Below are positions 3,056 to 34,443 of a DNA stretch of 35,147 bases, in pieces; within the stretch, counting starts at the first letter, position 1, and every line of letters starts with the position of its first letter. The notes below the pieces were generated by a model that did not search any database, had not been told where the DNA came from, and saw only the letters and a program-made list of their open reading frames with translations. The stretch lies in the IMG/VR virus record IMGVR_UViG_3300032070_000022, positions 1-35,147 of that record; one strand, written 5' to 3'. The translations under genes and the position numbers were made by a program. This DNA comes from a virus.

Positions 3056-3172
3056 ACCCAGGCACTCAGGCCTTCGCCCGCCGTAGGGCTTCGACCCGCA
3101 GGCAGGTACTTAGGTACTTCGCCACTCCGACACTCTGTCACTCCGTGACTCCGCCACTTCGTCACTTCGGCG
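3056..3172 (-). repeat. 8-bp-period repeat array R1
   Basis: Read on the minus strand, units such as CGGAGTGA, CGAAGTAC and CTAAGTAC follow each other with 8-bp spacing, then a less regular part and GCCTGAGTGCCTGGGTAC. It fills most of the gap between the 39-aa membrane gene and the 56-aa gene and is oriented with their transcription. This copy mixes the GAGTGAC and AAGTACCT unit variants. Confidence 0.75.
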
Positions 3173-3817: not shown

Positions 3818-3853
3818 CCCAGGCACCCAGGCACTCAGGTGCTCAGGCACTTT
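3818..3853 (-). repeat. 8-bp-period repeat array R2
   Basis: On the minus strand four units (AAGTGCCT, GAGCACCT, GAGTGCCT, GGGTGCCT) run from inside the last codons of the Gp37/Gp68-type gene to the RBS of the next gene. The TGA stop of the upstream gene is formed by the repeat itself (GCACCTGAG). Confidence 0.85.
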
Positions 3854-13003: not shown

Positions 13004-13012
13004 TGTTTGCGT

Positions 13013-13041
13013 TTGCACAGACGGGGCTTGTGTGCTATACT
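13013..13041 (+). promoter_or_regulatory. sigma70 promoter toward the repressor
   Basis: TTGCAC (13013-13018), a 17-bp spacer and TATACT (13036-13041), close to consensus. It is the only strong promoter visible in the divergent region and should drive the long leader and the repressor gene. Confidence 0.7.
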
Positions 13042-13390
13042 TCCGGGACTGGGCGAGCCGGGCCTCAGCCGTGAAGCCGAAAGCCGGCGTTATCGCAAGG
13101 GGCGGACGCGCTCTGGCCGCGCGCCCGCCCCGCAGAACGTCCGCGCGGGATGGGAGCGCGCGGACTCGAGTAGACAAACGCCCCCGACCTCCGTTTGGCA
13201 GACCAGGGCGGGCCAGACCAAGGCGGGCAGTCGGGGGCTTCTCGTCGGCGTACAGAGGCCGCGTCAGCGACCGTCCGCCGCCGGTTCTTCGTTCGTGGGT
13301 CATCGGCCCGCCCTTAAATTGTCGCCGATAATCCTACCGCCGAGGCCGGTAGGGCGACAAAGAAAATCTTGGGCGAAAGCGAGAAATTTT
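13042..13390 (+). ncRNA. long hairpin-rich leader, possible regulatory RNA
   Basis: This roughly 350-nt stretch has no convincing gene. It contains several inverted repeats: GTCCGCGCG/CGCGCGGAC (13139-13147, 13157-13165), GCCCCCGAC/GTCGGGGGC (13180-13188, 13230-13238), and CCTACCG/CGGTAGG (13333-13339, 13347-13353), the last with an outer GTCGC/GCGAC pair. Inside the second is an exact tandem of two 15-mers (13199-13228) differing at one base. It could be a structured 5' UTR or a separate small RNA. Confidence 0.4.
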
Positions 13391-14159: not shown

Positions 14160-14187
14160 TTGAATCGGGGCATAGGCATACTACAAT
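14160..14187 (+). promoter_or_regulatory. sigma70 promoter, module A
   Basis: TTGAAT (14160-14165), a 16-bp spacer and TACAAT (14182-14187). It lies directly upstream of a hairpin leader ending in a terminator. Confidence 0.6.
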
Positions 14188-14192
14188 AGTGA

Positions 14193-14265
14193 CGAGCGGT
14201 CGAACGCGACTGCTCGAAGACAAGGCCGTTCGGGGCCATGTGCAAAAGACCCCGGCGGCCTTTTT
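14193..14265 (+). ncRNA. leader with hairpin and intrinsic terminator, module A
   Basis: From about the expected start, CGAGCGGTCG/CGACTGCTCG (14193-14202, 14207-14216) form a 10-bp hairpin with an AACG loop and one G-U pair. Then AAGGCCG/CGGCCTT (14222-14228, 14256-14262) with an inner CGGGG/CCCCG stem ends in TTTTT. A roughly 72-nt RNA would result unless the terminator is read through into the gene at 14291. Confidence 0.55.
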
Positions 14266-14290
14266 GCTTGCGCGAGAGCGAGAGCGAGCC

Positions 14291-14824
14291 ATGCCACTCA
14301 ACCCCGTCGCACGGCCGCGCCAGTCCGAGGCCGATCTGGAGGATGCGCTCGCCGCCTTCCTGGAGGCGACCGGCCTGTTCCGAGTCCTTCGGCAAGTGGC
14401 CGGCCGGGTGCTGGGGCCGACGCCCTCTGGACGCGACTGGGTGCGTTGCGACGTTCTACTCTTGGCATCCGCGCGCGGGTTGCGAGCGGGATGGAGGCAC
14501 GGCCCTATCCTGCTCGAGGTCAAGCAGGTCGGCTTGCCCATTGAGATCGGGATATCCCAGGTCCTGGACTACGTGCGGTGCTCGTGGTGGCTGCCGAATG
14601 GGACACCCGTCCTGGCTCAATGGGCGTTCGTCTATCCCGCCGAACCGTTGACCGGCGCGCTCGCCAGCATCTGTGCCCGCAGCCGCGTCGGCACGGCGGC
14701 GCTGGCCCGCGGCGAACTGAACCTGCTGTGCGGCGAGCAGCGTGTGCTCACGGTCTGCGACGGCGGCGTCCTGCGCGTCGGCGACATGCGGGTTGGCCGC
14801 CGCCTTGGTGGCTCGCGCTCGTAG
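14291..14824 (+). CDS. PD-(D/E)xK nuclease-like protein, 177 aa
   Basis: Residues 10-140 fit a small PD-(D/E)xK fold: an N-terminal helix (SEADLEDALAAFLEATGLF), a strand with Asp (WVRCDVLLLA), a strand with GPILLEVKQ (the E-x-K pair) and a helix ISQVLDYVRC with a Gln typical of Cas4/RecB-like relatives. It may be a nuclease or a related DNA-processing factor; it is not a known named gene. The ATG at 14291 follows terminator A closely and has only a poor GCGAG site. The frame upstream covers the leader and is discarded. Confidence 0.6.
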   Translation: MPLNPVARPRQSEADLEDALAAFLEATGLFRVLRQVAGRVLGPTPSGRDWVRCDVLLLASARGLRAGWRHGPILLEVKQVGLPIEIGISQVLDYVRCSWWLPNGTPVLAQWAFVYPAEPLTGALASICARSRVGTAALARGELNLLCGEQRVLTVCDGGVLRVGDMRVGRRLGGSRS

Positions 14825-15074
14825 GTACTTCCCCGGCTTTCTCGCGCCGGTGTGCTCACCGAACAGCGCCAGAGCGCGGTAGAGTTTATTCACGGACCGC
14901 ATTTGAAGAACCGACCGTGGCGAGGGGTGATGAATGGACAAGTGATAAGGGGTCACGCATGGATAAGCGCTGACACGAGAGGCGCCGAGCGCGGCCGGCG
15001 GCAGGATTCTCAAACATTCTCCAGGAGACCGAGACGGGGGCGCTGCCCCATTGAGACGTCTATGGGGCCTAACA
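14825..15074. other. intergenic stretch without a clear gene
   Basis: Nothing definite is seen here. A weak small frame from 14932 (starting MNGQVIRGHAW) has GAGGGG before an ATG but runs through promoter B and looks accidental. Confidence 0.4.
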
Positions 15075-15103
15075 TTGACGCGCGGGGCGGCCGGCCGTAG
15101 AAT
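15075..15103 (+). promoter_or_regulatory. sigma70 promoter, module B
   Basis: TTGACG (15075-15080), a 17-bp spacer and TAGAAT (15098-15103). Upstream of the terminase genes, it is the likely start of a late operon. Confidence 0.6.
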
Positions 15104-15109
15104 GACGGC

Positions 15110-15207
15110 GCCAAACAAGCGAAAACAACGAAAACAACGGAAACGCCGGCCCGAGGGGTCCGGCGACCGGGGCCGTTCGGGGCCGAACACCCGAACGGCC
15201 TTTTTTT
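15110..15207 (+). ncRNA. leader with A-rich repeats and strong terminator, module B
   Basis: After the promoter come two GAAAACAAC units and a GGAAAC, framed by GGCG and CGCC, then GCCGG/CCGGC. A perfect terminator follows: GGCCGTTCGGG (15171-15181) and CCCGAACGGCC (15190-15200), an 8-base loop and seven Ts (15201-15207). The 14-mer GGCCGTTCGGGGCC is identical in module A, so these leaders are homologous. Confidence 0.6.
15171..15207 (+). terminator. intrinsic terminator B
   Basis: An 11-bp perfect GC-rich stem, an 8-base loop and T7. It lies about 150 bp before the 93-aa gene and some 60-100 nt after promoter B, so it is placed to stop most transcripts early. Confidence 0.85.
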
Positions 15208-15236
15208 CTCGGGGCCGCAGCAATCAAGAAAGGCTG

Positions 15237-15335
15237 AACCGCAAAGGACGCAAAGAGCGCAAAGGACAAACGGGTCTTCTTCTGAAAAAGATCCGGTCGT
15301 TGGCTTTCTTTGCGTTCTTGGCGCTCTTTGCGGTT
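15237..15335. repeat. roughly 100-bp CGCAAAG palindrome, full copy 1
   Basis: The left arm (15237-15267: AACCGCAAAGGACGCAAAG...) and the right arm (15304-15335: ...GGCGCTCTTTGCGGTT) are near-perfect reverse complements around a 36-bp centre. It lies between terminator B and the 93-aa gene. In RNA it would fold into one long hairpin. Confidence 0.85.
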
Positions 15336-15355
15336 GACGCCGTGCGGAGGACTGC

Positions 15356-15637
15356 ATGGCCGGAAGATCCGCCAAACCCGCCCTGCGAAAGACGTTGACG
15401 GCCCTCGTCCTGGCGGCCGCCGGCGGCCGGGCCGACCTCGAGTGGCTCGCGAAGGCCGTCCGAAAGGCCGGCTACGTCCGGGCGGCCGACTGCGCAACGC
15501 GCGCGGAGGTCCGGGCGGCCGTCCGCGCAATCGTCGGCGCCCTGGTGGATGCCGAGACAACCGCCCAATCCCCCTGTTGCCGGGAGTGTCTACATCGCGC
15601 GATCGACGCCCTCTCCGCGCTTGCCGGCGGCGAGTAA
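15356..15637 (+). CDS. small protein before terminase, possible small terminase
   Basis: A 93-aa protein with basic N-terminal helices (RKTLTALVLAAAGGRADLEWLAKAVRKAGYVR) that may be helix-turn-helix-like, then a helical region with a CCRECLH cluster. It sits directly upstream of and overlaps the large terminase, where a small terminase subunit is expected, but no family signature is visible, so the role is a guess from position. The start ATG at 15356 has GGAGG five bases before it, the best ribosome site in the area. Confidence 0.5.
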   Translation: MAGRSAKPALRKTLTALVLAAAGGRADLEWLAKAVRKAGYVRAADCATRAEVRAAVRAIVGALVDAETTAQSPCCRECLHRAIDALSALAGGE

Positions 15638-17765
15638 ACGCCTTCTCGGCGAGGTCCTCGCCGACCTCGCGTCGGCCCGCGCCCGGGCCGCCGCCGGCGC
15701 CGCGCGCTACCTCGATCATCGCACGGCCGTCGCCGAGGCCCAGGCCGCCAGGGTCCGGGCCGCCCAAGATATCGGCCCCGCGCCGCCGCGTGCGGATCCC
15801 GCCCGCTGGGAATCGTGTCGCATGGACCTCCGGCGATTCTGCGAAACCTACCTGGCCGCCACGTTTTATCGCCCGTGGTGCCAGGACCACCTCAAGGTCA
15901 TCACCCGCCTCCAGGAGGCGGTCCTACGCGGCGGCCTATTTGCGTTCGCCATGCCGCGAGGCGGCGGCAAGACCCGCCTGGCCGAGGCCGCCGCCCTCTG
16001 GGCCGTCCTCTATGGGCACCGCAGATTCGTCAGCATCCTTACGGTCAGTGCCGAGGTCGCCCAGGAACAGTTCATCGAGAAACTGAAAGGTCTGTTGGGG
16101 TTCCGCGGCGACCCCGAGTCCCTGCTCTCTGAGGACTTCGGGCCGGAACTCCTGCCGTTCCTGGCCCTCGAGGGCGAGCCGCGCCGCTGCATCGGCCAGC
16201 GCTCGTGCGGCAGGCCGACGTTCGTCAGGTGGCAGCAGCGCCGCCTGACCTTCGGAAGTCTGCCGGCGAGCCTCGCTTCGGGCGCGGTCATCTCGGCGTC
16301 CGGCCTGACGGGGGGCGGCGTCAGAGGTCAGAGCATCCGCCTTCCCGATTCCCGCCGCGTCGTCAGGCCGGATCTCGCCTTGGTGGACGATCCCCAGGAC
16401 GACCAGGTCGCCGCCTCGGCCACCCAGGTGAGGGGCCGGGTGCGCCTCTTGAACGGGGCCGTCCTGGGCATGGCCGGCCCGGACCGGCGCATAGCCGCCG
16501 TGGCGGCGGTCACGGTGATCCAGCCCGACGACGTGGCCGCCTGCCTCCTTGACCGCCAGAAGTCGCCCGACTGGCGCGGGGAATGCATGGAGATGCTCCA
16601 TGGGAAGCCGGCCAATCCGAAGTTGTGGGAGGAATACCGGGACCTTCGTCTGGCCGACCTGGCCGGGGGCACGGACCGGGCGGGAGAGTTCTACCGCGCC
16701 CGGCAACCGGAACTCGACGCCGGCCTCGAGGCCGCCTGGCCCGCCCGCTTCGATTCGGACGCGGGCGAGGCGAGCGCTATCCAGGCCGCGATGAACTTGA
16801 AACTCAGGGACGAGGGCGCGTTCATGGCGGAATATCAAAATGATCCGATGCCGGAAGAGGCCCGGCGCGGGGCCCTGTCGGTCGACCGGGTGATGTCGGC
16901 CGTGAACGGCCGGCCCCGCGGCGAGGTGCCGCCGGCGGCCACGCACCTGACGGCCTTCATCGACGTCGGCGACCGCCTCCTCTGGTGGTGCGTCTGCGCG
17001 TGGGAGGGCCGGAACTTCACCGGCTGCGTCGTGGATTACGGTGCCTTCCCCGACCAGCGGCGTCGGACATTCCAGGCGGCCGACTGTCCCCACACCCTTG
17101 CGCGGGCCTATCCCGGCGCCGGCCGGCTCGGGGCGATCCAGGCCGGCCTGGAGACCCTGGCCTCCGCCCTCCTCGCCCGCGACTGGCGGCGGGGCGAGGG
17201 CTTCGTCAGGCTCGACCGGCTCCTGGTGGACATGGGCCACGAGCCGCAGGTCGCGGCGGCGGTCAAGCGCAAGGTCGGCGGGGCGACGATGATGCTCTCG
17301 CGCGGCGTGGGCCTGCGCGCGAACAAAAAGCCGATGGCCGGGTGGGTCCGCAAGCCCGGCGAAATCCAGGGGCACCACTGGTATCAGCCCAGCGTTCGCA
17401 AGACCGCCGATTTCCCCCACGTGCTCGTGGACGTGAATTACTGGAAGACCTTCGTCCACGCGGCGTTCGGGACGGCGGCCGGCGACCCCGGGGCGCTGAC
17501 GCTCTTCGGCCGGGACCCCAGGGAGCATGAACTCTTCGCCGAGCACGTCGCGCGGTCCGAGCACTCGGTCGAACTCAAGGGGCCGTGGGGCGTCGTCCGC
17601 GAGTGGTCGAATCCCGGCAACCCCGACAACCACTGGTTCGATTGCCTGGTGGGCTGCGCGGCGGCGGCAAGCATGGCGGGCGTCAAGACGGCGGGCCAGG
17701 GGGAGGCCCGCCGAACCGGCGGGGGCGCAAGGTCCGGGAAGCCCAGGAAGGCGACGTATCTTTAA
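15549..17765 (+). CDS. terL: terminase large subunit
   Basis: A 738-aa packaging motor and nuclease. The N-terminal ATPase shows a Walker A (GGGKT, residues 138-142 in AMPRGGGKTRLAEA) after RPWCQDHLKVITRLQEAVLRGG, and a Walker B-like DLALVDDPQDD. The nuclease domain begins near TAFIDVGDRLLWW, with later acidic residues in RLLVDMGHE. The order Walker A, Walker B, then a first nuclease Asp is the usual layout. The start is uncertain: the ATG at 15549 has no SD and overlaps the previous gene by 89 bp; a TTG at 15621 is an alternative. The stop is directly followed by repeat array R4. Confidence 0.9.
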   Translation: MPRQPPNPPVAGSVYIARSTPSPRLPAASKRLLGEVLADLASARARAAAGAARYLDHRTAVAEAQAARVRAAQDIGPAPPRADPARWESCRMDLRRFCETYLAATFYRPWCQDHLKVITRLQEAVLRGGLFAFAMPRGGGKTRLAEAAALWAVLYGHRRFVSILTVSAEVAQEQFIEKLKGLLGFRGDPESLLSEDFGPELLPFLALEGEPRRCIGQRSCGRPTFVRWQQRRLTFGSLPASLASGAVISASGLTGGGVRGQSIRLPDSRRVVRPDLALVDDPQDDQVAASATQVRGRVRLLNGAVLGMAGPDRRIAAVAAVTVIQPDDVAACLLDRQKSPDWRGECMEMLHGKPANPKLWEEYRDLRLADLAGGTDRAGEFYRARQPELDAGLEAAWPARFDSDAGEASAIQAAMNLKLRDEGAFMAEYQNDPMPEEARRGALSVDRVMSAVNGRPRGEVPPAATHLTAFIDVGDRLLWWCVCAWEGRNFTGCVVDYGAFPDQRRRTFQAADCPHTLARAYPGAGRLGAIQAGLETLASALLARDWRRGEGFVRLDRLLVDMGHEPQVAAAVKRKVGGATMMLSRGVGLRANKKPMAGWVRKPGEIQGHHWYQPSVRKTADFPHVLVDVNYWKTFVHAAFGTAAGDPGALTLFGRDPREHELFAEHVARSEHSVELKGPWGVVREWSNPGNPDNHWFDCLVGCAAAASMAGVKTAGQGEARRTGGGARSGKPRKATYL

Positions 17766-17768
17766 TGG

Positions 17769-17797
17769 AAAGTGCCTAAGTACCTAAGTGCCTGGGT
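17769..17797 (+). repeat. 8-bp-period repeat array R4
   Basis: AAGTGCCT, AAGTACCT, AAGTGCCT, GGGT: a clean array starting 4 bases after the terminase stop. Confidence 0.9.
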
Positions 17798-17801
17798 AAA
17801 A

Positions 17802-17839
17802 AACGTAACACGAACGTGGCGCGAACGTGAGGCAAACGT
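17802..17839 (+). repeat. four AACGT iterons at exact 11-bp spacing
   Basis: AACGT occurs at 17802, 17813, 17824 and 17835, each 11 bp apart (one helical turn), the second and third preceded by CG and followed by G. It lies directly upstream of the zinc-ribbon gene's ribosome site. It could be a protein-binding array (regulator, packaging or replication site). Confidence 0.7.
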
Positions 17840-17863
17840 CATACCAACCGAAAGGAGCATGCC

Positions 17864-18121
17864 GTGGCCAAACCTATCAACAAGGGCGGGCGTCCCGCCG
17901 GGGTCAAGTCGGAGAAGGACCCGCCGGTCGTCGAACTGGTGACCCCGTCGCGGTGCCCCCGCTGCGGAAGCGACAAGCGTAGCGACTACTGGAGCCGGCA
18001 CGTCCAGGAGTTCGCGGGCGTCCTGCCGGACGGGCGGCCGTACACGCGCATCGTGCGGCAGCGGTGCCGGTGCTCGAACTGCGGCCAGATCCGGGTCGAT
18101 AAGCGGTACGAAATAACCTGA
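17864..18121 (+). CDS. zinc-ribbon protein after terminase, 85 aa
   Basis: Four cysteines form two pairs, CPRCGSD (about residues 31-34) and CRCSNCGQ (about 69-75), separated by a beta-rich part (HVQEFAGVLPDGRPYTRIVRQR). I recall this pattern from conserved zinc-ribbon proteins of phages and Planctomycetes; the role is unknown, probably DNA or protein binding. GTG at 17864 has AAAGGAG upstream. It sits between the terminase and portal blocks and follows the AACGT iterons, so it might be the protein that binds them; that is only a suggestion. Confidence 0.68.
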   Translation: MAKPINKGGRPAGVKSEKDPPVVELVTPSRCPRCGSDKRSDYWSRHVQEFAGVLPDGRPYTRIVRQRCRCSNCGQIRVDKRYEIT

Positions 18122-18149
18122 AAGCGCCGGTTGTTTCCGCCGGACCCGC

Positions 18150-18178
18150 TTGACTGCGGCCCGGGCCCGACGAATGAT
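18150..18178 (+). promoter_or_regulatory. sigma70 promoter, module C
   Basis: TTGACT (18150-18155), a 17-bp spacer and AATGAT (18173-18178). Upstream of the gpW/portal/capsid block. Confidence 0.55.
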
Positions 18179-18184
18179 GGCCAT

Positions 18185-18268
18185 GCGGTGGCGGCCGACG
18201 GGCCGCCCGTGAAATGAGAGAACCGAGGCCGTGCAGGAGCCTGCACCTTCTGCGCGGCCTTCTTTCTC
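18185..18268 (+). ncRNA. leader with hairpins and terminator, module C
   Basis: GGCGGCC/GGCCGCC (18190-18196, 18201-18207) form a 7-bp hairpin with a GACG loop, then AGGCCG...CGGCCT (18226-18231, 18255-18260) encloses GTGCAG/CTGCAC and ends in TTCTTTCTC. The layout and the AGGCCG...CGGCCT outer stem match module A, with a weaker T-run. Confidence 0.5.
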
Positions 18269-18291
18269 GCCAGGGTTCGACGGATGAAGAG

Positions 18292-18394
18292 TTAACCGCA
18301 AAGAGCGCAAAGAACGCAAAGGACAGATATGTCCTTTTCTGGAAAGGAACAGGCCGGTGCCGTTCTTTGCGCTCTTGGCGCTCTTTGCGGTTAG
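18292..18394. repeat. roughly 100-bp CGCAAAG palindrome, full copy 2
   Basis: Left arm 18292-18324 (TTAACCGCAAAGAGCGCAAAG...) and right arm 18362-18394 (...GGCGCTCTTTGCGGTTA) pair over about 30 bp with a 37-bp centre. Like copy 1, it stands between a leader terminator and the first gene of an operon. Confidence 0.85.
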
Positions 18395-18429
18395 CGCCCT
18401 TTTGCGTCGTCTCTTGGACGGGTGAACGC

Positions 18430-18630
18430 ATGGCGTTTCTGGCGGACCAGATCGTCGCGAAGATCGAGGCCCAGATCCTCGCCAACCCCCTCGCGGAACA
18501 GATCTCGCTCGACGGCCATAGCGTCTCCATGCCGGAGGCGATCCGCAAACTGGAGTACTGGCGAAGGAGGGCCGCCCGCGAGAACGGCGGCCGGCCCGTC
18601 GTCGCGACTTTCAACCTTTCGGGGTGCTGA
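18430..18630 (+). CDS. gpW-like head-tail joining protein
   Basis: A 66-aa protein in the place of lambda gpW, between terminase and portal. It has two helices (ADQIVAKIEAQILAN and SMPEAIRKLEYWRRRAAREN) separated by a short beta hairpin (EQISLDGHSV), which is the gpW fold order. gpW helps attach the tail to the filled head. The stop and the portal start overlap as TGATG, so the pair is coupled. Homology to gpW is inferred from size, secondary-structure pattern and position. Confidence 0.65.
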   Translation: MAFLADQIVAKIEAQILANPLAEQISLDGHSVSMPEAIRKLEYWRRRAARENGGRPVVATFNLSGC

Positions 18631-20150
18631 TGCCGACCATCCAGGACAAACGGTCGCCGACGCGCCAAAGCCGCTATGGCGACGGCGCGCGGGTTATTCT
18701 CGGGGCCGATGGCCTCCCTGCCCGCCGAAGCCTCGGCGAAGGCGGGCCGATCCTCCGCGCGGAATACGACGCGGTCGGCTCCTCGAACCGCCGGCGTCTG
18801 CCGGCGACGGTCCTCAGGGACGAGGACCGCGAACTCCTGCCCCAGAGCCGCGGGGCGATGGTGGCCGCGGCCCGCGACATCCGCAGAAACTACTCCATCG
18901 CCGCCTGGGCCATCCGTAAGCACCTCGACTACGTCTCGACCTTCACGTTCCAGTCGCGGACGGGTGACGCGGACCTCGACGCCCGGATCGAGAATCTCAT
19001 GGCCTGGTGGGGCCGGCGCGAAAACTGCGACGTGGCCGCCCGCCATCCCCTGCCGCGCCTGACGCGCCTTCTGGAGGCCCACCGCGTCGTCGACGGCGAC
19101 GTCTTCCTCCTGAAACTCCTGGACGGCCGCGTCCAGGGCATCGAGGGCGACCGGGTCCGCAACCCCTGGGGCGGTCTGCCGCCCGGCGTGGCGGCGGGGA
19201 GCCTGCTGCACGGCGTCCAGGTCGACTCGCCCGGCAAGGCCCTCGCGTACTCGGTCTGCCGGCGAATCGGCGGGACGGGCTTCGAGTTCGAGCGGCTTCT
19301 CCCCGCCGCGTGGGTCTACCATCACGGCTACTTCGACCGGCTGGACCAGGTCCGCGGCGTCACGCCGCTTTCGAGCGCCCTCAACGATTTCAGGGATTGC
19401 TACGAGGCCAAGGATTACGCCCTCGCAAAGATGAAGATAAGCCAATTGTTCGGCCTGATCTTCTACCGCGAGGCGGCCGAGGAGATGGGCGTCGTCACGC
19501 CCCAAGCCTCGGCCGACGCCGCCTCTGCCGGGACTTCAACGCCCGAGTACTATGAAGTCGACTTGGGCAAAGGGCCCTTCAAAGTGGAACTCGACCCGGG
19601 CGACAGGGCCGAATGGTTGGAGACGAAGAGCCCCGCGGCCGAGACCCTCGCGTTCTTCCAGGCGATGATCGAGGCCGCCCTGAAGAGCCTCGACCTCCCG
19701 ATGTCGTTCTACGACGGCAGCCGCACGAACTTCTTCGGCTCGCGCGCGGAACTGAACCACTACCTGGCCGGGGCGGCCATCAAGAGGCGCGACATCCAAG
19801 ACATGCTGGGATGGCTGACGGCCTGGCGACTGGGGATGTCGGTCGATCGGGGCCTCCTCAAACTTCCGGCGGGCCTGAAACTCCGGGACCTCAAGTCCGA
19901 GTGGGTCCACGCTGGCCTTCCCTGGTGGAACCCGCAGCAGGAGGTCAACGCCGACATCCAAGCCCTGGCGGGCGCCCTCACGTCCCGCCAGCGGGTGACG
20001 AAGGAGCGGGGCGAGGACTGGTACGAGATCGTCGACGAACTGGCGGCCGAGCAGAAGACCCTCGCCGAGAGGGGATTGCCGACCGACCTCAAGCCCGCCC
20101 ACGTCCTGGTGCAGGACATGGCCGGCGAGGGCAAGGGAAAGGATGCATAG
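18630..20150 (+). CDS. phage portal protein, lambda family
   Basis: A 506-aa protein with the pattern of lambda-type portals: AMVAAARDIRRNYSIAAWAIRKHLDYVSTF, then HRVVDGDVFLLKLLDGRVQGIEGDRV, DQVRGVTPLSSALNDFRDCYEAKDYALAKMK, and SFYDGSRTNFFGSRAEL near the C-terminal third. It forms the dodecameric DNA entry ring at one vertex. Its first 40 residues are unusual: they are encoded by two short dispersed repeats, one giving SPTRQSRYGDGA and one giving PARRSLGEGG. The true portal fold begins near residue 40. The ATG at 18630 overlaps the stop of the gpW-like gene. Confidence 0.88.
   Translation: MPTIQDKRSPTRQSRYGDGARVILGADGLPARRSLGEGGPILRAEYDAVGSSNRRRLPATVLRDEDRELLPQSRGAMVAAARDIRRNYSIAAWAIRKHLDYVSTFTFQSRTGDADLDARIENLMAWWGRRENCDVAARHPLPRLTRLLEAHRVVDGDVFLLKLLDGRVQGIEGDRVRNPWGGLPPGVAAGSLLHGVQVDSPGKALAYSVCRRIGGTGFEFERLLPAAWVYHHGYFDRLDQVRGVTPLSSALNDFRDCYEAKDYALAKMKISQLFGLIFYREAAEEMGVVTPQASADAASAGTSTPEYYEVDLGKGPFKVELDPGDRAEWLETKSPAAETLAFFQAMIEAALKSLDLPMSFYDGSRTNFFGSRAELNHYLAGAAIKRRDIQDMLGWLTAWRLGMSVDRGLLKLPAGLKLRDLKSEWVHAGLPWWNPQQEVNADIQALAGALTSRQRVTKERGEDWYEIVDELAAEQKTLAERGLPTDLKPAHVLVQDMAGEGKGKDA
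18654..18689. repeat. 36-bp dispersed element, copy 1
   Basis: With the preceding G it has GTCGCC/GGCGAC inverted ends in its first 30 bases and differs at one base from 34286-34321. It is read in frame at the portal N-terminus. Confidence 0.8.
18721..18746. repeat. 26-bp dispersed palindrome, copy 2
   Basis: CCCGCC...GGCGGG ends, inverse of 7649-7674 with 4 mismatches. Encodes PARRSLGEGG in the portal N-terminus. Confidence 0.7.
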
Positions 20151-20151
20151 C

Positions 20152-21627
20152 ATGCCAGACCGCACGGACGTCGAGGTGGCATTGGCGGACGCGCGAGTCC
20201 AGAAGTGCGCGGCGCAGCACTTCGGTCCCTGGATGGTCGAACCGGCCTGGTTCGAGCGGGCGGTCGCCGCCGTCAAGGCAGGCATATATGTTACTTACCG
20301 CCCTCGCGCCGCCGAGGGATCCGAGAGCGCCGAGCGCCCGGCCTATCGTCGAACCGCTGACGGCATCGCCATCCTCTCCCTCGAGGGGCAACTCACGAAG
20401 GGCGAATCGAGTTTCGGCGGCGGGACGTCCACCGTCCGCGTGCGCAGGGCCATCCGCCAGGCCGCGGGCGACCAGGCGGTCAAGGCCATCATGCTCCTTA
20501 TCGACTCGCCCGGCGGCACGGTGGCCGGCACGGCCGAACTGGCCGCCGACATCGCCGCCGCCAACCGCACGAAGCCGGTCCACGCCCACATCGAGGACCT
20601 GGGCGCATCCGCCGCATACTGGATCGGTTCCCAGGCCGCGCGGCTGACCGCCACGCCCACCAGCCTCGTCGGCTCCATCGGCACCGTCGCCGTCGTGGAG
20701 GATTCATCCGGCCACATGAGCAAGGAGGGCGTGGTCGTCCACGTCATCTGCACGGGCGCCTATAAGGGCGCCTTCACGCCGGGGGCCCCCGTCAAGCCGG
20801 AACACCTGGAATACCTTCGCGGATACGTCAACGATCTGAACGAGCACTTTCTCGGCGGGGTGGCGACCGGCCGCCATCTGTCTCTGGACGCCGTGCGCCG
20901 CCTGGCCGACGGCCGCATACGCCTGGCCGGGGCGGCCAAGGGTCTCGGCCTCCTGGACGCCGTGTGCGGCCAAGACGAGGCGATGCAGGACCTGCGTTCG
21001 CGCCTGAGCGCCGCCCAGACGACCGCCCTCACAAAGGAGAAATCCGACATGTGGAATCCATTGCAGACCGGCGTGCCGCCGCATGCGGCCTCAAAGGTCG
21101 AACCCATGCCCCCCGTCGCGGAGGAGACCCGCCACGATGTCGAGGTCGTCGCGGAGGATCTGCCAGCCCGCGAACCTCGCGCCGCAATCGGGGCCGCTCC
21201 GCCGCAGGGAGCCGCTGCGGTGGACGAGCCGGCCCGGGAACCGCCGGCCGAGGCGCCGGCGCCCATGCCCCAGAGCGACCGGGCCGCGATCGAGGCCCAG
21301 AGCGCGGCCGACGCGCGGGCCGACCTCAAGAAGTTCATGGACGCCTTCGGCCCGGCCGGGGCCGAATGGTTCGCCGCCGGGAAGACCTTCGACGAGGCCC
21401 GGGGCCTCCACGCGGCCGCCCTCTCGGCCGAGCGCGATCGCCTGGCGGAGGAGAACGCGGACCTGAAGGTCCGGGTCGCCGAGGCCCAGGGATCGCCCAC
21501 GCCCGTCAGTTTCTCCGCGCCGGACGCCGCGGCCGCCGCCGAGAGCGATCTTGCGGCCAAGATCGGAAAGAATGCCGCCCGCTTCGCCGCGGGCGTGAGA
21601 CTCCCCAAGAATAAGGAAGGCGCCTGA
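20152..21627 (+). CDS. S49-family capsid maturation protease with C-terminal scaffold
   Basis: A 491-aa lambda gpC-like protein. The protease shows GIAILSLEGQL, IMLLIDSPGGTVAGTAELAADI, the catalytic Ser153 in LGASAAYWIGS and the catalytic Lys205 in GAYKGAF, giving the Ser-Lys dyad of SppA/S49 enzymes. From about residue 300 a Pro/Ala-rich linker and a coiled coil (ALSAERDRLAEENADLKVRVAE) form a scaffold. It would build the procapsid and then cleave itself and the scaffold. The ATG at 20152 has AAAGG nine bases upstream; the ATG at 20143 is too close to it. Confidence 0.87.
   Translation: MPDRTDVEVALADARVQKCAAQHFGPWMVEPAWFERAVAAVKAGIYVTYRPRAAEGSESAERPAYRRTADGIAILSLEGQLTKGESSFGGGTSTVRVRRAIRQAAGDQAVKAIMLLIDSPGGTVAGTAELAADIAAANRTKPVHAHIEDLGASAAYWIGSQAARLTATPTSLVGSIGTVAVVEDSSGHMSKEGVVVHVICTGAYKGAFTPGAPVKPEHLEYLRGYVNDLNEHFLGGVATGRHLSLDAVRRLADGRIRLAGAAKGLGLLDAVCGQDEAMQDLRSRLSAAQTTALTKEKSDMWNPLQTGVPPHAASKVEPMPPVAEETRHDVEVVAEDLPAREPRAAIGAAPPQGAAAVDEPAREPPAEAPAPMPQSDRAAIEAQSAADARADLKKFMDAFGPAGAEWFAAGKTFDEARGLHAAALSAERDRLAEENADLKVRVAEAQGSPTPVSFSAPDAAAAAESDLAAKIGKNAARFAAGVRLPKNKEGA
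21049..21627 (+). CDS. nested scaffold protein, in-frame internal start
   Basis: The in-frame ATG at 21049 has AAAGGAG at correct spacing (AAAGGAGAAATCCGACATG), placed at the boundary between the protease and the linker. It would yield the 192-aa scaffold alone, as lambda Nu3 is made from inside gene C. Content: Pro/Ala-rich N-part and a coiled coil near the C-terminus. Confidence 0.72.
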   Translation: MWNPLQTGVPPHAASKVEPMPPVAEETRHDVEVVAEDLPAREPRAAIGAAPPQGAAAVDEPAREPPAEAPAPMPQSDRAAIEAQSAADARADLKKFMDAFGPAGAEWFAAGKTFDEARGLHAAALSAERDRLAEENADLKVRVAEAQGSPTPVSFSAPDAAAAAESDLAAKIGKNAARFAAGVRLPKNKEGA

Positions 21628-21706
21628 GCGCCGCTTAAGAAGAGGCGAGCAGAAATCTGAAACGCGGGCCTTCTAGAGAGAGGCCCCAAACCGAAAGGAA
21701 GCAAAC

Positions 21707-22621
21707 ATGACCATGCCGACGCTTCTGGATATCGCCAAGCGAAACGGGTCCGACCAGGTCGTCGGCCTGATCGACGAGGCGAGCAGGGTGCACCCGGAAC
21801 TGACCCTGATCCCCGCCCGGACCATCCGGGGCCTGAACTACAAGACCTTCGTGCGGACGGCGAATCCGACCGTGGCCTTCCGCAGCGCGAACGAGGGGAC
21901 GCCGGCCACGAAGGGGACCTACGAGAACCGCCTGGTCGAGACCTTCATCATGAACCCGCGCTGGGAATGCGACAAGGCCGTCGCGGACCGGTCCGAGGAC
22001 GGCGCCCCGGCGTACATCGCCCTGGAGGCGGAGGCGATGACAGAGGCGGCCATGCAGACGCTCTGCACCCAACTCTACTATGGGACGGGGGCGGACGCCA
22101 AAGGGTTCCCCGGTCTGGTCGCGGCCTACGACGCGACGAACATGGTCGTCGACGCCGGCGGCACCACGGGCGCGACCGGATCGAGCGTCTGGGCCCTGCG
22201 CTTCGGCCCCAAGAACGTGATCTGGGTCTGGGGCAACGGCGGCAGCCTGGAACTGTCGCCGGTGACGGAGCAGCGGATCCTGGACGGGAGCAGCAACCCG
22301 TTCACGGCCTACATCCAGGAACTCCTGGCCTATCCGGGCCTCCAGGTGGCGAGCCTGCTTTCGATCGCGCGTGTGAAGAAGATCACCGCCGACTCGGGGC
22401 ACACCCTCACGGACGGCATGATCGCCGCCCTCCTGGCGCTCTTCCCGGCGGGGACGCGGCCCGACGTCCTCCTGATGAACCGCCGGTCGATCGGCCAGTT
22501 GCAGAACTCGCGGACGGCCACCAACGCCACCGGCGCGCCGGCCCCGTTCCCCGGCGAATCGTTCGGCATCCCGATCGCCGTCACCGACGCGATCCTGTCG
22601 ACCGAAGCGCTGACGCTGTAA
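21707..22621 (+). CDS. major capsid protein (Gp49-like family)
   Basis: A 304-aa protein with the pattern of a phage major capsid family often named GP49: TLLDIAKRNGSDQVVGLIDEA at the start, RTIRGLNYKTFVRTANPTVAFRSANEG, QLYYGTGADAKGFPGLVAAYDAT, and PDVLLMNRRSIGQLQNSRT near the end. It probably has the HK97 fold and forms the shell. AAAGGAAG lies upstream of the ATG at 21707. It follows the protease/scaffold gene, the usual order. The 115-nt gap after it holds repeat array R5. Confidence 0.85.
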   Translation: MTMPTLLDIAKRNGSDQVVGLIDEASRVHPELTLIPARTIRGLNYKTFVRTANPTVAFRSANEGTPATKGTYENRLVETFIMNPRWECDKAVADRSEDGAPAYIALEAEAMTEAAMQTLCTQLYYGTGADAKGFPGLVAAYDATNMVVDAGGTTGATGSSVWALRFGPKNVIWVWGNGGSLELSPVTEQRILDGSSNPFTAYIQELLAYPGLQVASLLSIARVKKITADSGHTLTDGMIAALLALFPAGTRPDVLLMNRRSIGQLQNSRTATNATGAPAPFPGESFGIPIAVTDAILSTEALTL

Positions 22622-22625
22622 CGGC

Positions 22626-22668
22626 GGGTGCCTGAGTACCGAAGTACCTGGGTGCCTGAGTAACGGAT
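22626..22668 (+). repeat. 8-bp-period repeat array R5
   Basis: GGTGCCTG, AGTACCGA, AGTACCTG, GGTGCCTG, AGTAACGG: starts 5 bases after the capsid stop. Confidence 0.9.
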
Positions 22669-24310: not shown

Positions 24311-24754
24311 ATGGCCGTCATCATAGACGTCGCGAACGCCGTGGTGGCTGCATTGAACGCGGCCACGTTCAGCCGGCCCGTGGCGGCCGAGCGGCGCTGG
24401 CAGGCGGAAGAGGAACTGGAGAGCCTGAAGGACCTCAAGGTCGCGGTCATTCCGGTGGCCGTGCCCTCGATCGAGGCCCTCGACAGGAGCCGCCTCGTGC
24501 GCGAGGTGGAGGTCGACGTCGTCGTCCAGAAAAAGACGGCCGACCTCGCGGAGACCGACGGGCTGGTCGCCCTCGTGGAGGAGATCGGCAATTTCCTGGC
24601 CATGAAACGCCCCACGGCCTGCCCGGCCGCGGCCTGGGTGGGGATCGCCAGCCCGGTCCTCTGCGATCCCGAGCACCTCCGCCAGTACGGCCTCTTTACG
24701 AGCGTCCTGGCGCTCTCGTACCGGGTGGCAGGCCAGGATAAGACAGGTGCCTAA
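24311..24754 (+). CDS. probable tail completion/terminator-like protein
   Basis: A 147-aa protein: an N-terminal helix (VIIDVANAVVAALNAA), then RPVAAERRWQAEEELESLKDLKVAVIPV and REVEVDVVVQKKT, followed by a helix and strands that end in YRVAGQ. The alternation matches gpZ/gpU-type tail-completion proteins that close the tail tube next to the head. GGAGG is 8 bases before the ATG. The stop is formed at the edge of repeat array R7 (GGTGCC-TAA). Confidence 0.58.
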   Translation: MAVIIDVANAVVAALNAATFSRPVAAERRWQAEEELESLKDLKVAVIPVAVPSIEALDRSRLVREVEVDVVVQKKTADLAETDGLVALVEEIGNFLAMKRPTACPAAAWVGIASPVLCDPEHLRQYGLFTSVLALSYRVAGQDKTGA

Positions 24755-24812
24755 GTACCTAAGTGCCTAAGTACCCAGGCACCTCGGCACCGAGGCACCC
24801 AGGCACCTTTCG
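24744..24812 (+). repeat. 8-bp-period repeat array R7 with inverse half
   Basis: Forward units (GGTGCCTA, AGTACCTA, AGTGCCTA, AGTACCC) are followed by inverse units (AGGCACCT, CGGCACCG, AGGCACCC, AGGCACCT). In RNA the two halves can pair into one long hairpin. Confidence 0.85.
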
Positions 24813-24828
24813 CAAAGAGGCGACTACA

Positions 24829-27478: not shown

Positions 27479-27524
27479 AAGTACCTGAGTACCGAAGTAC
27501 CTGAGTACCTGGGTGCCTGGGGAA
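27479..27524 (+). repeat. 8-bp-period repeat array R9
   Basis: AGTACCTG, AGTACCGA, AGTACCTG, AGTACCTG, GGTGCCTG: a clean all-forward array ending at GGGGAAAAAGGAG, the next ribosome site. Confidence 0.9.
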
Positions 27525-27537
27525 AAAGGAGAGAACC

Positions 27538-28580: not shown

Positions 28581-28585
28581 GAAGA

Positions 28586-28643
28586 GGCACCTAAGTGCCG
28601 ACGCGCCTTGGTACTTAGGTACTCAGGCACCCAGGCACGCAGT
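28586..28643 (+). repeat. 8-bp-period repeat array R10 with inverse half
   Basis: AGGCACCTAAGTGCC then ...TTGGTACTTAGGTACTCAGGCACCCAGGCAC: mixed forward and inverse units. It ends directly at the GTTAGGAGG ribosome site of the next gene. Confidence 0.8.
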
Positions 28644-28657
28644 TAGGAGGTTTTCAC

Positions 28658-29068: not shown

Positions 29069-29079
29069 TCAAGAAACAG

Positions 29080-29179
29080 GCGCCTAAGTGCCTGAGTACC
29101 TAAGTACCTGAGTGCCCAGGGACGGAGGCGCCCAGGGACCTAGGGACCCAGGCACCCAGGCACCAAGGCACGGAGGCAC
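29080..29179 (+). repeat. 8-bp-period repeat array R11 with inverse half
   Basis: About 100 bp: forward units up to GAGTGCCC, then mostly inverse units (AGGGACCT, AGGGACCC, AGGCACCC, AGGCACCA, AGGCACGG). The final unit variant CGGAGGCACC supplies GGAGG, the ribosome site of the next gene. Confidence 0.85.
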
Positions 29180-29183
29180 CGAC

Positions 29184-29696
29184 GTGAAAACATTCACCGA
29201 CGCCGAAGGCCGCACGTGGGAGGTCCTGGTCGACGTCTCGACGGTGAGGCTCGTCCGCACCGCCCTTGGCGTCGACCTCATGGAGGTGGCCGCCGGCGAC
29301 CTCCTGGCCCGCTTTTGCCGAGACCCCTGTCTCCTGGTGGACATTCTCTACGTCCTTTCGGCCCCGGCGCCCGGTTTCGAGGCGGTGAAAAAGGAGGAGT
29401 TCGAGCGGGCGATGCGGGGCGACGTGCTGGACCAGGCCGCCGCGGCCCTCGCAGAGGAAATTCTCGATTTTTTCCCACGGGCCCGGCGCCTCCAGGCGCT
29501 GGGAAAACTCGTGGAGGCCGTGCACGCCGAAGAGGCGGCGGTGAAAGAGGCGACCCGGATCCTCGCCCCCCTGGCGGCGGCAGAAACGCCGGCGCAGGCC
29601 GTAAAGGAGAGCGAAAAACCGCCGCCGGCCGACGATCCAGCCGCCGCAGCCAAGGCTGCTCCGGCGGAGGCGGCAAGACCCGGCCTCGTCGGCTGA
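29184..29696 (+). CDS. tail assembly chaperone (gpG-like)
   Basis: A 170-aa protein: VKTFTDAEGRTWEVLVDVSTVRLVRTALGVDLMEVAAGDLLARFCRDPCLLVDILYVLSAP and a helical part (EFERAMRGDVLDQAAAALAEEILDF), then an Ala/Pro-rich tail. This is the pattern of tail assembly chaperones of lambda gpG type. It begins with GTG at 29184, whose GGAGG comes from repeat array R11. A -1 frame reading continues past its stop into a second domain (next feature). Possible slip sites are T-TTT-TTC (29468-29474) and GAA-AAA (29613-29618). Confidence 0.68.
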   Translation: MKTFTDAEGRTWEVLVDVSTVRLVRTALGVDLMEVAAGDLLARFCRDPCLLVDILYVLSAPAPGFEAVKKEEFERAMRGDVLDQAAAALAEEILDFFPRARRLQALGKLVEAVHAEEAAVKEATRILAPLAAAETPAQAVKESEKPPPADDPAAAAKAAPAEAARPGLVG

Positions 29697-30016: not shown

Positions 30017-30116
30017 GTGCCGAGGCAACTGGGTGCCGAGGTGCCGGGGTAAGCGGCACCGAGGAACCCGGGCACCAGGGCACCCAGGCACTCAGGCACG
30101 GAGGCACTTAGGAACC
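30014..30116 (+). repeat. 8-bp-period repeat array R12 with inverse half
   Basis: Forward units (AGGTGCCG, AGGCAACT, GGGTGCCG, AGGTGCCG) then inverse units (GGGCACCA, GGGCACCC, AGGCACTC, AGGCACGG, AGGCACTT). It ends in AGGAACC before the GTG of the next gene. Confidence 0.8.
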
Positions 30117-30120
30117 TGTC

Positions 30121-30870
30121 GTGATAACGTTCGCCGTCAAAAAGTGGTTCTTCGACCAGCCGCGGGTCCGGGCCCTCCTGGAACCGGCCGTGGCGGACTA
30201 CCTCGAGCACCTCGGCGCGTGGATCCGGACGACCGCCCAGCGCTCGATGCGTTATCGCAAGTATGGGTCGGCCTCCGCCCCCGGCCAACCCCCTAGCGCG
30301 CACCGACCGCGCGCGTTGTTGCGCCAACACATCTACTACTGCCTCGATCCCCAGACCCGGACGGTCGTCGTCGGCGCTCAAGTCTTCGCATCTCCCAACT
30401 TTGAACGGGGGGCGTCGATGGGCTGGAATGTCCCCTTCGTCCAGGAGCATGGTTTCAGCGGGACTCGCCGCCTCCGCAACTGGCGCTGGAAACTGGGCAT
30501 GCGGGGTTGGGGCCTGGGCGCTTCGGGCTGGCCACCGCGGCCCTACCAGGTCGGCGACTTCGCTGTCATTCGCGGGACGACGTACCTGCCGGATCGGCCC
30601 GAAGGCGGCGCCCTTATCCGAAGCGCGGAGGGTCGCCTGCACGAAGTGAAAAGATACGCCAACGTGATCCTCTTGAGAACGCCCTTGCAGGCGGCGCGCG
30701 CCACGATGCTGCGTCCGCTGATTTATGGACCGATGGTTCTGGAACGTAAGGTGACTTATCCCCCCAGACCGTTTATCTCGGCGGCGATGTACACGGCCAT
30801 CGACTTGGGGTTGCCCAAGAAGTTCGCCCGGCAGGCGCTTCAGAGGTTCGGGCTGAGACGAAGTGCCTGA
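30121..30870 (+). CDS. minor tail or neck protein, 249 aa
   Basis: A protein with an N-terminal helix (WFFDQPRVRALLEPAVADYLEHLGAWIRTTAQRSMRYRK), an insert rich in basic and aromatic residues (GTRRLRNWRWKLGMRGWGLGASGW) and an end like gp10-type proteins (PPRPFISAAMYTAIDLGLPKKFARQALQRFGL). HK97 gp10-like proteins join the tail to the head, but the position after the chaperones also fits a minor tail protein. GTG at 30121 has AGGAA (from the repeat) upstream. Confidence 0.5.
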   Translation: MITFAVKKWFFDQPRVRALLEPAVADYLEHLGAWIRTTAQRSMRYRKYGSASAPGQPPSAHRPRALLRQHIYYCLDPQTRTVVVGAQVFASPNFERGASMGWNVPFVQEHGFSGTRRLRNWRWKLGMRGWGLGASGWPPRPYQVGDFAVIRGTTYLPDRPEGGALIRSAEGRLHEVKRYANVILLRTPLQAARATMLRPLIYGPMVLERKVTYPPRPFISAAMYTAIDLGLPKKFARQALQRFGLRRSA

Positions 30871-30897
30871 GTACCTAAGTACCTAAGTGCCTAAGTA
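30863..30897 (+). repeat. 8-bp-period repeat array R13
   Basis: AGTGCCTG, AGTACCTA, AGTACCTA, AGTGCCTA, AGTAACGG: all forward. The stop codon of the upstream gene (TGA) is made by the first unit. Confidence 0.9.
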
Positions 30898-30909
30898 ACG
30901 GAAAAAAAG

Positions 30910-32199
30910 ATGCCTTCGGCAAGAGAACTTCGGGCCGGCCTGGTGTTCGTCGAGATGGGGATCGACCGCGCATTCCTCCAGGCGGAACTCGACAAGGCCA
31001 AGGCCCAGGTGGCGAAGACCGCCGCGGACATGAACAAGGCGGGCGCAGCGGGGGGGGGCTTCGGGGCGGGGGCGGGCGGGCCACCTGCCGGCAAGTGGAT
31101 GCAGATGGTGGCACGCGGGGCCGGCGTCGCCTATGGCCTGGAGACCCTCGCCGGCACGGTCAGCGGCTTCATCGCCCTCCTGAAGGGAGACTGGGAAGGG
31201 GCGATCAAGGGCATCAGACAGGTGCCGGTCCTCGGCGCCGTTGCGGTCGATGTGGCCGACGCGGTCGACGCCCTGTTCCTCGGGACCAAGGCCTATGTCG
31301 CCGGCCTCAAGAAGGCCGCCCAGGAGTTCCAGGACTATACGACCGGCGTCAGCGGCCTCGGGGAACTCGGCCTCAAGTTCCAGCGCCGCGCATGGATGAT
31401 CGGCCAGGGGCCCGGGGCGGAGGCGGCAGAGAAGATCCACGAGGAGGCCATGACGGCAATCCACGAGGCGATGGAAATCGCCCGGAAAAAGGGGATCGAT
31501 ACCGAGACGCATCCGGGTTTCAAGAAGACCCTCCGGGACATCGTAAACTGGGAGAACAAGGCGACCGCGGAGGCGGCCCGGGCCCCCGACATCAAGAAGT
31601 ACCAGGACGCCCTGGCGAGGGCGGAAGACGATTGGGCAAAACTCAATTTGTCGGAGGAGGAATACATCGCCCGCCAGATCGAAATGCTGGGGTTGCCGGC
31701 GGAACAGGAATACCGCCTGATCGACCTTCTCCTGGAGAACAAGGAGACCGCCGAGAAACAGAAGGAGGCCGCCGAGGGCGCCAAGAAGGCCGCGGAGGAG
31801 GCGTCCCGGATGCGGCAGGAGGTCCTGGACGACGCCCGCCGGCACGACGAAGAGCGCGTGCGAACGCTGGAGGAGATCACTCGCTCCGTCGAGACGCCCG
31901 AAGAAGAGTTCATGCGCCGCAAAGGGGAACTCGACAAGGCCCTCGAGGAAGGCCTGCCGCAGGACATCTACGAGCGCGCCATTCGAAAGGCCCTCGAACA
32001 GGCCGCCGCGGCCTTGCCCGACCTCGTCGGTTCGACGTACCGCGCGAAGGGGACGTTCTGGGGCATGGAGTCGGCGATGGGCATGGGGGGCGCCGGCGGG
32101 ACCGAGGTCCTGCTTCGCAAGACCGCCGATTCGAGCGAGAAAACCGCCCGCCTGCTTCAGAGGTTGGCGGACGAGGGGATTCCGCTGGTGTGGAATTGA
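30910..32199 (+). CDS. tape measure protein
   Basis: A 429-aa mostly helical protein. The N-part (DRAFLQAELDKAKAQVAKTAADMNKAG) is coiled coil, followed by a Gly-rich insert, a hydrophobic stretch (YGLETLAGTVSGFIALLKGDW, VLGAVAVDVADAVDALFLG) and long charged helices (ENKETAEKQKEAAEGAKKAAEEASRMRQEVLDDARRHDEERV). This layout is typical of tape measure proteins, which set tail length. It is short; taking about 0.15 nm per residue, the tail would be around 65 nm. It follows the chaperone genes as in other siphophages. Confidence 0.7.
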   Translation: MPSARELRAGLVFVEMGIDRAFLQAELDKAKAQVAKTAADMNKAGAAGGGFGAGAGGPPAGKWMQMVARGAGVAYGLETLAGTVSGFIALLKGDWEGAIKGIRQVPVLGAVAVDVADAVDALFLGTKAYVAGLKKAAQEFQDYTTGVSGLGELGLKFQRRAWMIGQGPGAEAAEKIHEEAMTAIHEAMEIARKKGIDTETHPGFKKTLRDIVNWENKATAEAARAPDIKKYQDALARAEDDWAKLNLSEEEYIARQIEMLGLPAEQEYRLIDLLLENKETAEKQKEAAEGAKKAAEEASRMRQEVLDDARRHDEERVRTLEEITRSVETPEEEFMRRKGELDKALEEGLPQDIYERAIRKALEQAAAALPDLVGSTYRAKGTFWGMESAMGMGGAGGTEVLLRKTADSSEKTARLLQRLADEGIPLVWN

Positions 32200-32205
32200 C
32201 AAAAC

Positions 32206-32275
32206 GGGTGCCTGGGTGACCAGGTGCCTGGGTACATCGGTACTTAGGTACACAGACACTTCGGCACCTCGGCAC
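32206..32275 (+). repeat. 8-bp-period repeat array R14 with inverse half
   Basis: GGTGCCTG, GGTGACCA, GGTGCCTG, GGTACATC, GGTACTTAGGTACACAGACACTTCGGCACCTCGGCAC: forward then inverse units. It fills the gap after the tape measure gene. Confidence 0.8.
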
Positions 32276-32288
32276 GAGGGTTCAAGCA

Positions 32289-33138: not shown

Positions 33139-33176
33139 CCAGTGACTGAGTAACTGAGTACCTAAGTACCTGAGTC
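33139..33176 (+). repeat. 8-bp-period repeat array R15
   Basis: CAGTGACT, GAGTAACT, GAGTACCT, AAGTACCT, GAGTC: links the GAGTGAC variant and the AAGTACCT variant in one array, showing they are one family. Confidence 0.9.
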
Positions 33177-33182
33177 AACGAC

Positions 33183-34081: not shown

Positions 34082-34360
34082 ATGCTCGTCAAGGCCGAGG
34101 ACATTCCGGCAGCCGTTCGTCAAGTCCCGCTGGCCTGCGTGCACCAGGTCATCCGGCCCCGGCCGCCCTGGGCGCGGCTGGAAGGCTGGGGCGACTGTCT
34201 TTCGTGCTCAGCCGACGCCGCCAACGCCGCCTGCGCCGGATACCGTCCTTTCCCCGCGCCCCAAGGAAAGGCGCCAACCGCAAAGTCGCCGACGCGTCAA
34301 AGCCGCTATGGCGACGGCGCGAGCGCGAAGAGCGCAAAGGAAAGAGGCGTCCTCGTTTGA
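34082..34360 (+). CDS. small Cys-containing protein with repeat-derived C-terminus, 92 aa
   Basis: Residues 1-60 (LVKAEDIPAAVRQVPLACVHQVI..., GDCLSCSADAANAAC) look real, with four or five cysteines that might bind zinc. The last third (KSPTRQSRYGDGASAKSAKERGVLV) is encoded by the 36-bp element and the CGCAAAG palindrome, so the original end has been replaced. Only a weak GGTGACCC ribosome site is present. It could instead be a degraded gene. Confidence 0.4.
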   Translation: MLVKAEDIPAAVRQVPLACVHQVIRPRPPWARLEGWGDCLSCSADAANAACAGYRPFPAPQGKAPTAKSPTRQSRYGDGASAKSAKERGVLV

Positions 34361-34412
34361 AAAACAAGAGGTCCTGGCCTTCCTTTGCGTTCTTTGCGCC
34401 CTTTGCGGTTCA
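34276..34412. repeat. CGCAAAG palindrome, full copy 3, split by a 36-bp element
   Basis: The left arm (AACCGCAAAG, then after the insert AGCGCGAAGAGCGCAAAGG) and the right arm (CCTTTGCGTTCTTTGCG, CCCTTTGCGGTT, ending 34410) pair as in copies 1 and 2. The 36 bp at 34286-34321 interrupt the left arm exactly. Confidence 0.8.
34286..34321. repeat. 36-bp dispersed element, copy 2
   Basis: One mismatch to 18654-18689. It has inserted between AAAG and AGCGCG of the surrounding palindrome; removing it restores a normal arm. Confidence 0.8.
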
Positions 34413-34415
34413 GGC

Positions 34416-34443
34416 TTGACAGGCCGACGCTTCCCGATATGAT
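34416..34443 (+). promoter_or_regulatory. consensus sigma70 promoter, module D
   Basis: TTGACA (34416-34421), a 16-bp spacer and TATGAT (34438-34443). The leader after it has a GAGGC/GCCTC stem but no T-run. It drives the Gam-like gene. Confidence 0.75.

Follow-up and report, generated by a model that had tools for sequence, protein, structure and literature searches.

The window analysed here, the whole 35,147-nt stretch of an IMG/VR virus record, carries a temperate-phage gene set, as judged by scans of part of its proteins. A leftward block encodes an integrase, an excisionase-like helix-turn-helix (HTH) protein, methyltransferases and a ParB-like protein; a rightward block runs from a repressor-like HTH protein to terminase, portal, S49 protease and capsid, and the left end of the window contains a partial tRNA. 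The nearest relative of this phage is L149, with 71% identity in the terminase large subunit (TerL). Three intergenic modules, A, B and C, stand on the forward strand at operon heads. Module A precedes a gene (14291–14824) to which no function was assigned, the product of which is 62% identical to its L149 homologue. Module B heads a small ORF (15356–15637; terminase small subunit by position) and the TerL gene, which together span 15356–17765. A gene for a small zinc-ribbon protein (17864–18121; an NrdR-like ribbon in relatives) separates TerL from module C, which heads the late structural operon (18430–22621) of a small ORF, portal, S49 protease and major capsid protein. The module C terminator lies about 460 nt past the TerL stop codon, ahead of this portal operon, whereas modules A and B head other operons.

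An earlier note on this DNA had described each module as a sigma70 promoter followed by a leader hairpin and a terminator, and our analysis bore this out, with a sigma70-type promoter match at each of the three sites. Module A consists of a promoter-like site, TTGAAT-16-TACAAT (14160–14187), a promoter-proximal hairpin with a loop lacking CUGAUC (14193–14216) and a terminator with the arm GGCC-GTTC-GGGGCC (14222–14263). In module B, the promoter-like site TTGACG-17-TAGAAT (15075–15103) is followed by the upstream hairpin CGCCGGCCCGAGGGGTCCGGCG (15144–15165) and by a terminator with a T-rich tail (15169–15202). Module C has TTGACT-17-AATGAT (18150–18178), a promoter-proximal hairpin (18190–18207) and a terminator (18225–18261). 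Five promoter-like sites were seen in 8 kb, compared with 0.8 ± 0.8 expected from shuffles, and at the same threshold none was found between a module terminator and the next gene in the window. The leaders of A, B and C fold more stably than dinucleotide shuffles (z of −3.5, −3.0 and −4.3), and their terminator hairpins, at −22, −25.6 and −26.4 kcal/mol, are followed by T-rich tails. No leader peptide is evident in these leaders. A candidate fourth module at 13012–13245 was rejected because, despite being promoter-like, its fold is no better than that of mononucleotide shuffles; the site itself (13012–13041; TTTGCA-18-TATACT, with an extended −10) precedes the repressor-like HTH gene, with a GC-rich leader between the two.

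The homology of the modules, also claimed in the earlier note, was borne out by a covariance model that drew nothing from the window and by L149, in which three modules are arranged in the same way. Among 80 viral loci taken from a TerL alignment (A1), several carry a promoter and terminator pair at the module C site, 300–700 nt or more past TerL and before the portal gene. The covariance model R1 was built from eleven of those sequences, with the window excluded. In a search space of 0.9 Mb it recovered its own members together with module B (15122–15208; 36.0 bits, E = 4 × 10−8) and module C (18178–18267; 29.2 bits, E = 5 × 10−6), with a weak match to module A (15.7 bits, E = 0.08); these E-values are rough, as the calibrations were short. 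The R2 model scored modules B (15160–15212), C and A (14221–14269) at 37, 25 and 21 bits, respectively, and aligned the best of them in the terminator only. L149 has three R1 matches; they precede its counterparts of the module A gene and of the small terminase ORF, and its portal gene, the same gene positions as in the window. The membership of module A rests mainly on its L149 counterpart, which at the same gene has TTGAAT-16-TAGAAT and the 14-mer GGCCGTTCGGGGCC in the same places. That 14-mer, reported in the earlier note as identical in A and B, is indeed present in both (14224–14237 and 15171–15184), but at least 119 viral stretches carry it; alone it is weak evidence and too common to be a family marker. 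On sequence grounds, A, B and C are homologous and belong to one RNA family.

Scanning viral contigs with a pattern and searching Planctomycetota-group genomes yielded 64 distinct strong members, from viral and genome sets that overlap and are not independent samples; statements on the host rest on the group of one metagenome-assembled genome titled Planctomycetaceae bacterium (L008). The best-conserved members lie between TerL and portal, a position that the element keeps across divergent phages. All 11 of the genome places scoring at least 83 bits adjoin TerL and/or portal homologues, and these places are therefore proviruses. Matches of the model on the reverse strand were set aside, as they mostly reflect the palindromic terminator; in some members they pointed to P1, a helix described below. 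Most TerL relatives lack the element, so late control in the wider clade does not require it. Outside the range of the models, L003, a distant relative, shows a layout resembling that of module A at 2781–2913, where a promoter (TTGACG-18-TAGGAT) and a hairpin lead to a strong terminator ahead of another gene.

In the consensus alignment A6, which comprises 26 sequences, the complete element is a three-way junction of helices P1, P2 and P3. P1 forms between the predicted start of the transcript and sequence past the U-tract, so that the element in relatives extends beyond the terminator to the strand P1′. The P2 hairpin is capped by a palindromic U-turn loop, and P3 is the intrinsic terminator. 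The order in A6 is the 5′ strand of P1 (GACAAC...GGGCGAC), P2 with its seven-base loop, an A-rich linker, P3 with its T-tract and P1′ (for example, UCGCCC...GGUUGUC). The three helices comprise 38 pairs, with 87% of cells paired and 24 pairs changed on both sides, where compensatory changes are counted as sequences and not as events. The covariation score for P1, P2 and P3 together is 0.343, compared with 0.158 ± 0.010 for shuffled alignments and at most 0.076 when the pairing is slid. At one P3 pair, 15 of the 26 sequences have U-G. Duplex energy alone was discarded as a test of P1, being confounded by competing pairings, and the alignment count was used instead. The earlier note had proposed examining related phages for covariation and had named unconserved stems as grounds for abandoning its reading; the stems are conserved and covary strongly.

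The 5′ arm of P3 has a further potential partner. Its inner part is complementary to a segment within the terminator loop, and in this alternative pairing 93% of cells are paired and covariation scores 0.766, compared with 0.294 when shuffled. Family columns 73–77 covary both with columns 83–87 (the alternative pairing) and with columns 91–98 (P3). Because the arm covaries with two partners, the same bases are under selection for two mutually exclusive pairings, and the terminator looks bistable from its sequence. An inner fold of −3 kcal/mol or lower is predicted for 94% of family members, compared with 72% of background terminators; the inner hairpin is thus common in unrelated terminators too, and the covariation is the stronger argument. 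A further candidate alternative pairing in the family, GGCY with RGCC, is apparent. Modules B and C keep both exclusive pairings in their sequences, with alternative inner hairpins, consistent with the covariation in the family, at 15175–15188 (GTTCGGGGCCGAAC) and 18231–18246 (GTGCAGGAGCCTGCAC) that would exclude the terminator stem.

The window modules retain the promoter, the first hairpin in the P2 position, the genomic position, and P3 together with its alternative arm, which is clear in B and C but only partial in A. By inspection, neither a CUGAUCM or UAGCUA loop in P2 nor a P1 helix across the terminator is present in A, B or C. Statements on P1 and the loop accordingly apply to the RNA family and not to the window modules, which, to judge from their sequences, represent a divergent branch, present in triplicate, that L149 shares. 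Lacking the CUGAUC loop and P1, they may behave unlike the conserved members.

Sequence upstream of the element, anchored at the start of P1 in 35 sequences (a few of them imperfectly), recurrently contains a TTG-type −35 and a TAGATT- or TATAAT-like −10, the end of which falls most often 7 nt before P1. The mean promoter score is 7.41, compared with 5.92 ± 0.20 for shuffled upstream sequence. This spacing suggests that the transcript begins with P1 or within a very short distance of it.

The core of the P2 loop is palindromic in all 64 members, being GAUC in 60 and AGCU in 4. By class, 59 of the 64 loops are CUGAUCM or the same with another last base, one is CCGAUCA and four are UAGCUA preceded by C, U or A. 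The YUNR U-turn form of the loop is known from antisense RNAs. If two copies of the RNA pair with each other, a change from GAUC to AGCU is what compensatory change would be expected to look like. However, members were found in part with a CTGATC-containing pattern and the AGCU cases may represent only one or two independent events, which leaves the loop evidence suggestive only. We regard it as fairly unlikely that the leader is a self-dimerizing RNA switch in which terminated leaders kiss nascent leaders in trans through P2. If it were, late-gene read-through would depend on the number of phage genomes per cell, and RNA dimerization through the palindromic loop would be a possible control signal.

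Taken as a whole, the data favour, with a likelihood that we place modestly above even, the interpretation that the modules represent a new leader-RNA family of phage late operons, the members of which work as regulated terminators, either as attenuators or as antitermination targets. The observations beneath it are the homology of the modules, the covariation of P1, P2, P3 and the alternative pairing, and the position at the heads of late operons; from them we infer a transcription start, termination and regulated read-through. Transcription would begin at the promoter just upstream, and P2, the first hairpin, would fold. By default, polymerase would stop at the P3 U-tract, releasing an RNA of about 70–105 nt. 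The 5′ arm of P3 could pair either with the 3′ arm of the terminator or with the nearer segment in the terminator loop, and a signal acting through P2 or the polymerase (a protein, an RNA or an RNA dimer) might tip the balance towards the second pairing or prevent termination in another way, allowing the late genes to be read. In well-conserved members, the read-through RNA would close P1 with its own 5′ end. Because the window has no promoter-like site from terminator to late genes, late transcription must cross P3, whether it starts locally or upstream. An obligatory terminator, the 5′ arm of which is conserved for a second, exclusive pairing, makes regulated termination the best explanation. 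The element is thus probably a previously undescribed RNA that decides whether the capsid genes are read. We know of no description of late-gene control in phages of Planctomycetota. Such a conserved, covarying RNA, placed in front of capsid operons and containing a bistable terminator, would offer a direct, testable handle on the timing of lysis and lysogeny, and the covariance model doubles as a provirus marker in draft genomes.

Searches against Rfam 15 returned only tRNA matches at the gathering score and no relevant family under permissive settings, and literature searches found no described RNA motif at the TerL–portal site. The closest functional parallels are the lambda pR′–tR′ region with Q, and AlpA and GafZ, which likewise involve a late promoter, then a close intrinsic terminator that has to be overridden before late or structural genes. 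AlpA carries transcription past a terminator that follows its promoter (PMC9371919), as GafZ does at terminators of the gene transfer agent cluster (PMC11150451). Factors of the Q, AlpA and GafZ type are loaded, or are presumed to be loaded, onto a promoter DNA element (PMC6606751, PMC11150451). By contrast, what is conserved here is an RNA three-way junction with a bistable terminator, and no such factor was recognized. The antiterminator gene that the earlier note proposed to look for did not emerge: no match to N, Q, AlpA or NusG was recognized among the window proteins scanned, a search that covered known types and part of the late genes. Membership in the lambda nut or Q systems was rejected for want of a recognizable antiterminator gene in that set. 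Lambda N-nut (boxA/boxB) also has a promoter-proximal hairpin with a conserved loop, but the loop here is CUGAUCM or UAGCUA, and no N-like protein or boxA was identified. HK022 put works in cis and needs no protein, acting through the zinc-binding domain of the RNA polymerase beta′ subunit; in its control by nascent RNA, it too is a functional parallel. As described, it is an element of about 70 nt with two stem-loops that binds the zinc-binding domain of RNA polymerase and lies in early operons (PMC9378689). Put and the present element alike open a phage transcript with two hairpins and regulate termination in cis (here by prediction), but in the latter the second hairpin is a terminator with a U-tract, P1 crosses it and late operons follow; against that description (PMC9378689), put membership fails on both structure and operon class. 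With RNA attenuators, the element shares one arm that covaries with two mutually exclusive partners; it differs in lacking a leader peptide, a tRNA sensor and any known ligand domain, in preceding phage late genes and in its palindromic U-turn loop. The earlier proposal of either a small-RNA family or an antitermination system comparable to nut and put holds in that there is one RNA family with covarying stems, a promoter upstream of the terminator in relatives and a place at late-operon heads; its link to put or nut is not supported, given the different structure and the lack of a recognized antiterminator protein. We judge the element to be a new RNA family of the attenuation or antitermination leader kind.

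The same evidence was weighed against other explanations. Their own promoters and strong terminators, the YUNR fit of the P2 loop and the three paralogous copies in one phage would suit modules that are small-RNA genes, producing a terminated RNA of about 70–105 nt that acts in trans through the exposed loop while the late operons are transcribed from elsewhere. We consider this unlikely: P1 links the 5′ end with sequence past the U-tract and covaries, pointing to selection on a longer RNA; the position immediately before late genes is fixed; and transcripts from upstream must still cross the terminator. Moreover, the complement of the loop 7-mer is not enriched downstream (2 seen, 1.6 expected). 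That the modules are only punctuation, terminators that insulate operons beneath a coincidental promoter-like sequence, accords with the commonness of strong intergenic terminators in phages. It is nevertheless improbable, given that the promoter is conserved and lies upstream rather than downstream of the terminator, and that P1, P2 and the alternative pairing covary, none of which a plain terminator needs.

A stable three-way-junction RNA that multimerizes by loop–loop contact, with its gene lying between those for the packaging ATPase and the portal, would recall the phi29 packaging RNA, which is likewise a small three-way-junction phage RNA gene with possible loop–loop contact. The covarying P1, P2 and P3, the site between TerL and portal and the palindromic loop, in its GAUC and AGCU classes, in 64 of 64 members all fit such a role. 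Structure and sequence differ from those of phi29 RNA, however, the terminator lies inside the element and the window phage has several copies per genome. In the window and in L149, the three copies precede different operons, and the element is absent from most TerL relatives. The RNA would be cut ahead of P1′ by the conserved U-tract, and the window copies have neither P1 nor the palindromic loop. A packaging role is thus very unlikely. Still harder to credit is an element that acts as DNA, through protein-binding inverted repeats or a cruciform: the whole element is rich in inverted repeats, but pairing is kept while sequence changes, including G-U pairs, as fits RNA, and the orientation of promoter and U-tract is fixed.

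The zinc-ribbon gene before module C was considered as a specific partner of the element and rejected, as it is found after TerL not only in 17 of 18 relatives that have the module but also in 41 of 60 that lack it; the gene belongs to the terminase neighbourhood. A zinc-ribbon protein is encoded after TerL in most of the clade, where relatives match the NrdR zinc ribbon (PF22811) above the cut-off and the rest of NrdR is missing, and in L149 a second copy immediately precedes module B.

Other repeats occur in the window. A 112-nt imperfect palindrome (AACCGCAAAGGACGCAAAGAGCGC... / ...GCGCTCTTTGCGGTT) is present in three copies, two of them directly 3′ of modules B (15230–15341) and C (18287–18398) and one at 34305–34416. 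Degenerate repeats with an 8-nt period (GTGCCTAAGTACCTAAGT..., GGCACCCAGGCACTCA...) lie in many intergenic spacers (3097–3170, 3822–3852, 17764–17811, 22628–22667, 24735–24814, 27481–27528, 28583–28654, 29076–29203, 30028–30123, 30855–30910, 32208–32283 and 33142–33189). The gene or tRNA that comes next begins within tens of bases of P1′ in many relatives. Finally, a tRNA-Met (CAU) gene lies directly 3′ of P1′ in at least 13 of the 64 members, with initiator-like features in several (L139 6520–6595, L148 3117–3192, L138 3450–3526, L145 2781–2854, L292 6297–6369 on the reverse strand, L229 4546–4617 and others), and degenerate CAU tRNA-like sequences follow P1′ in other members, such as L389, L392 and L394.
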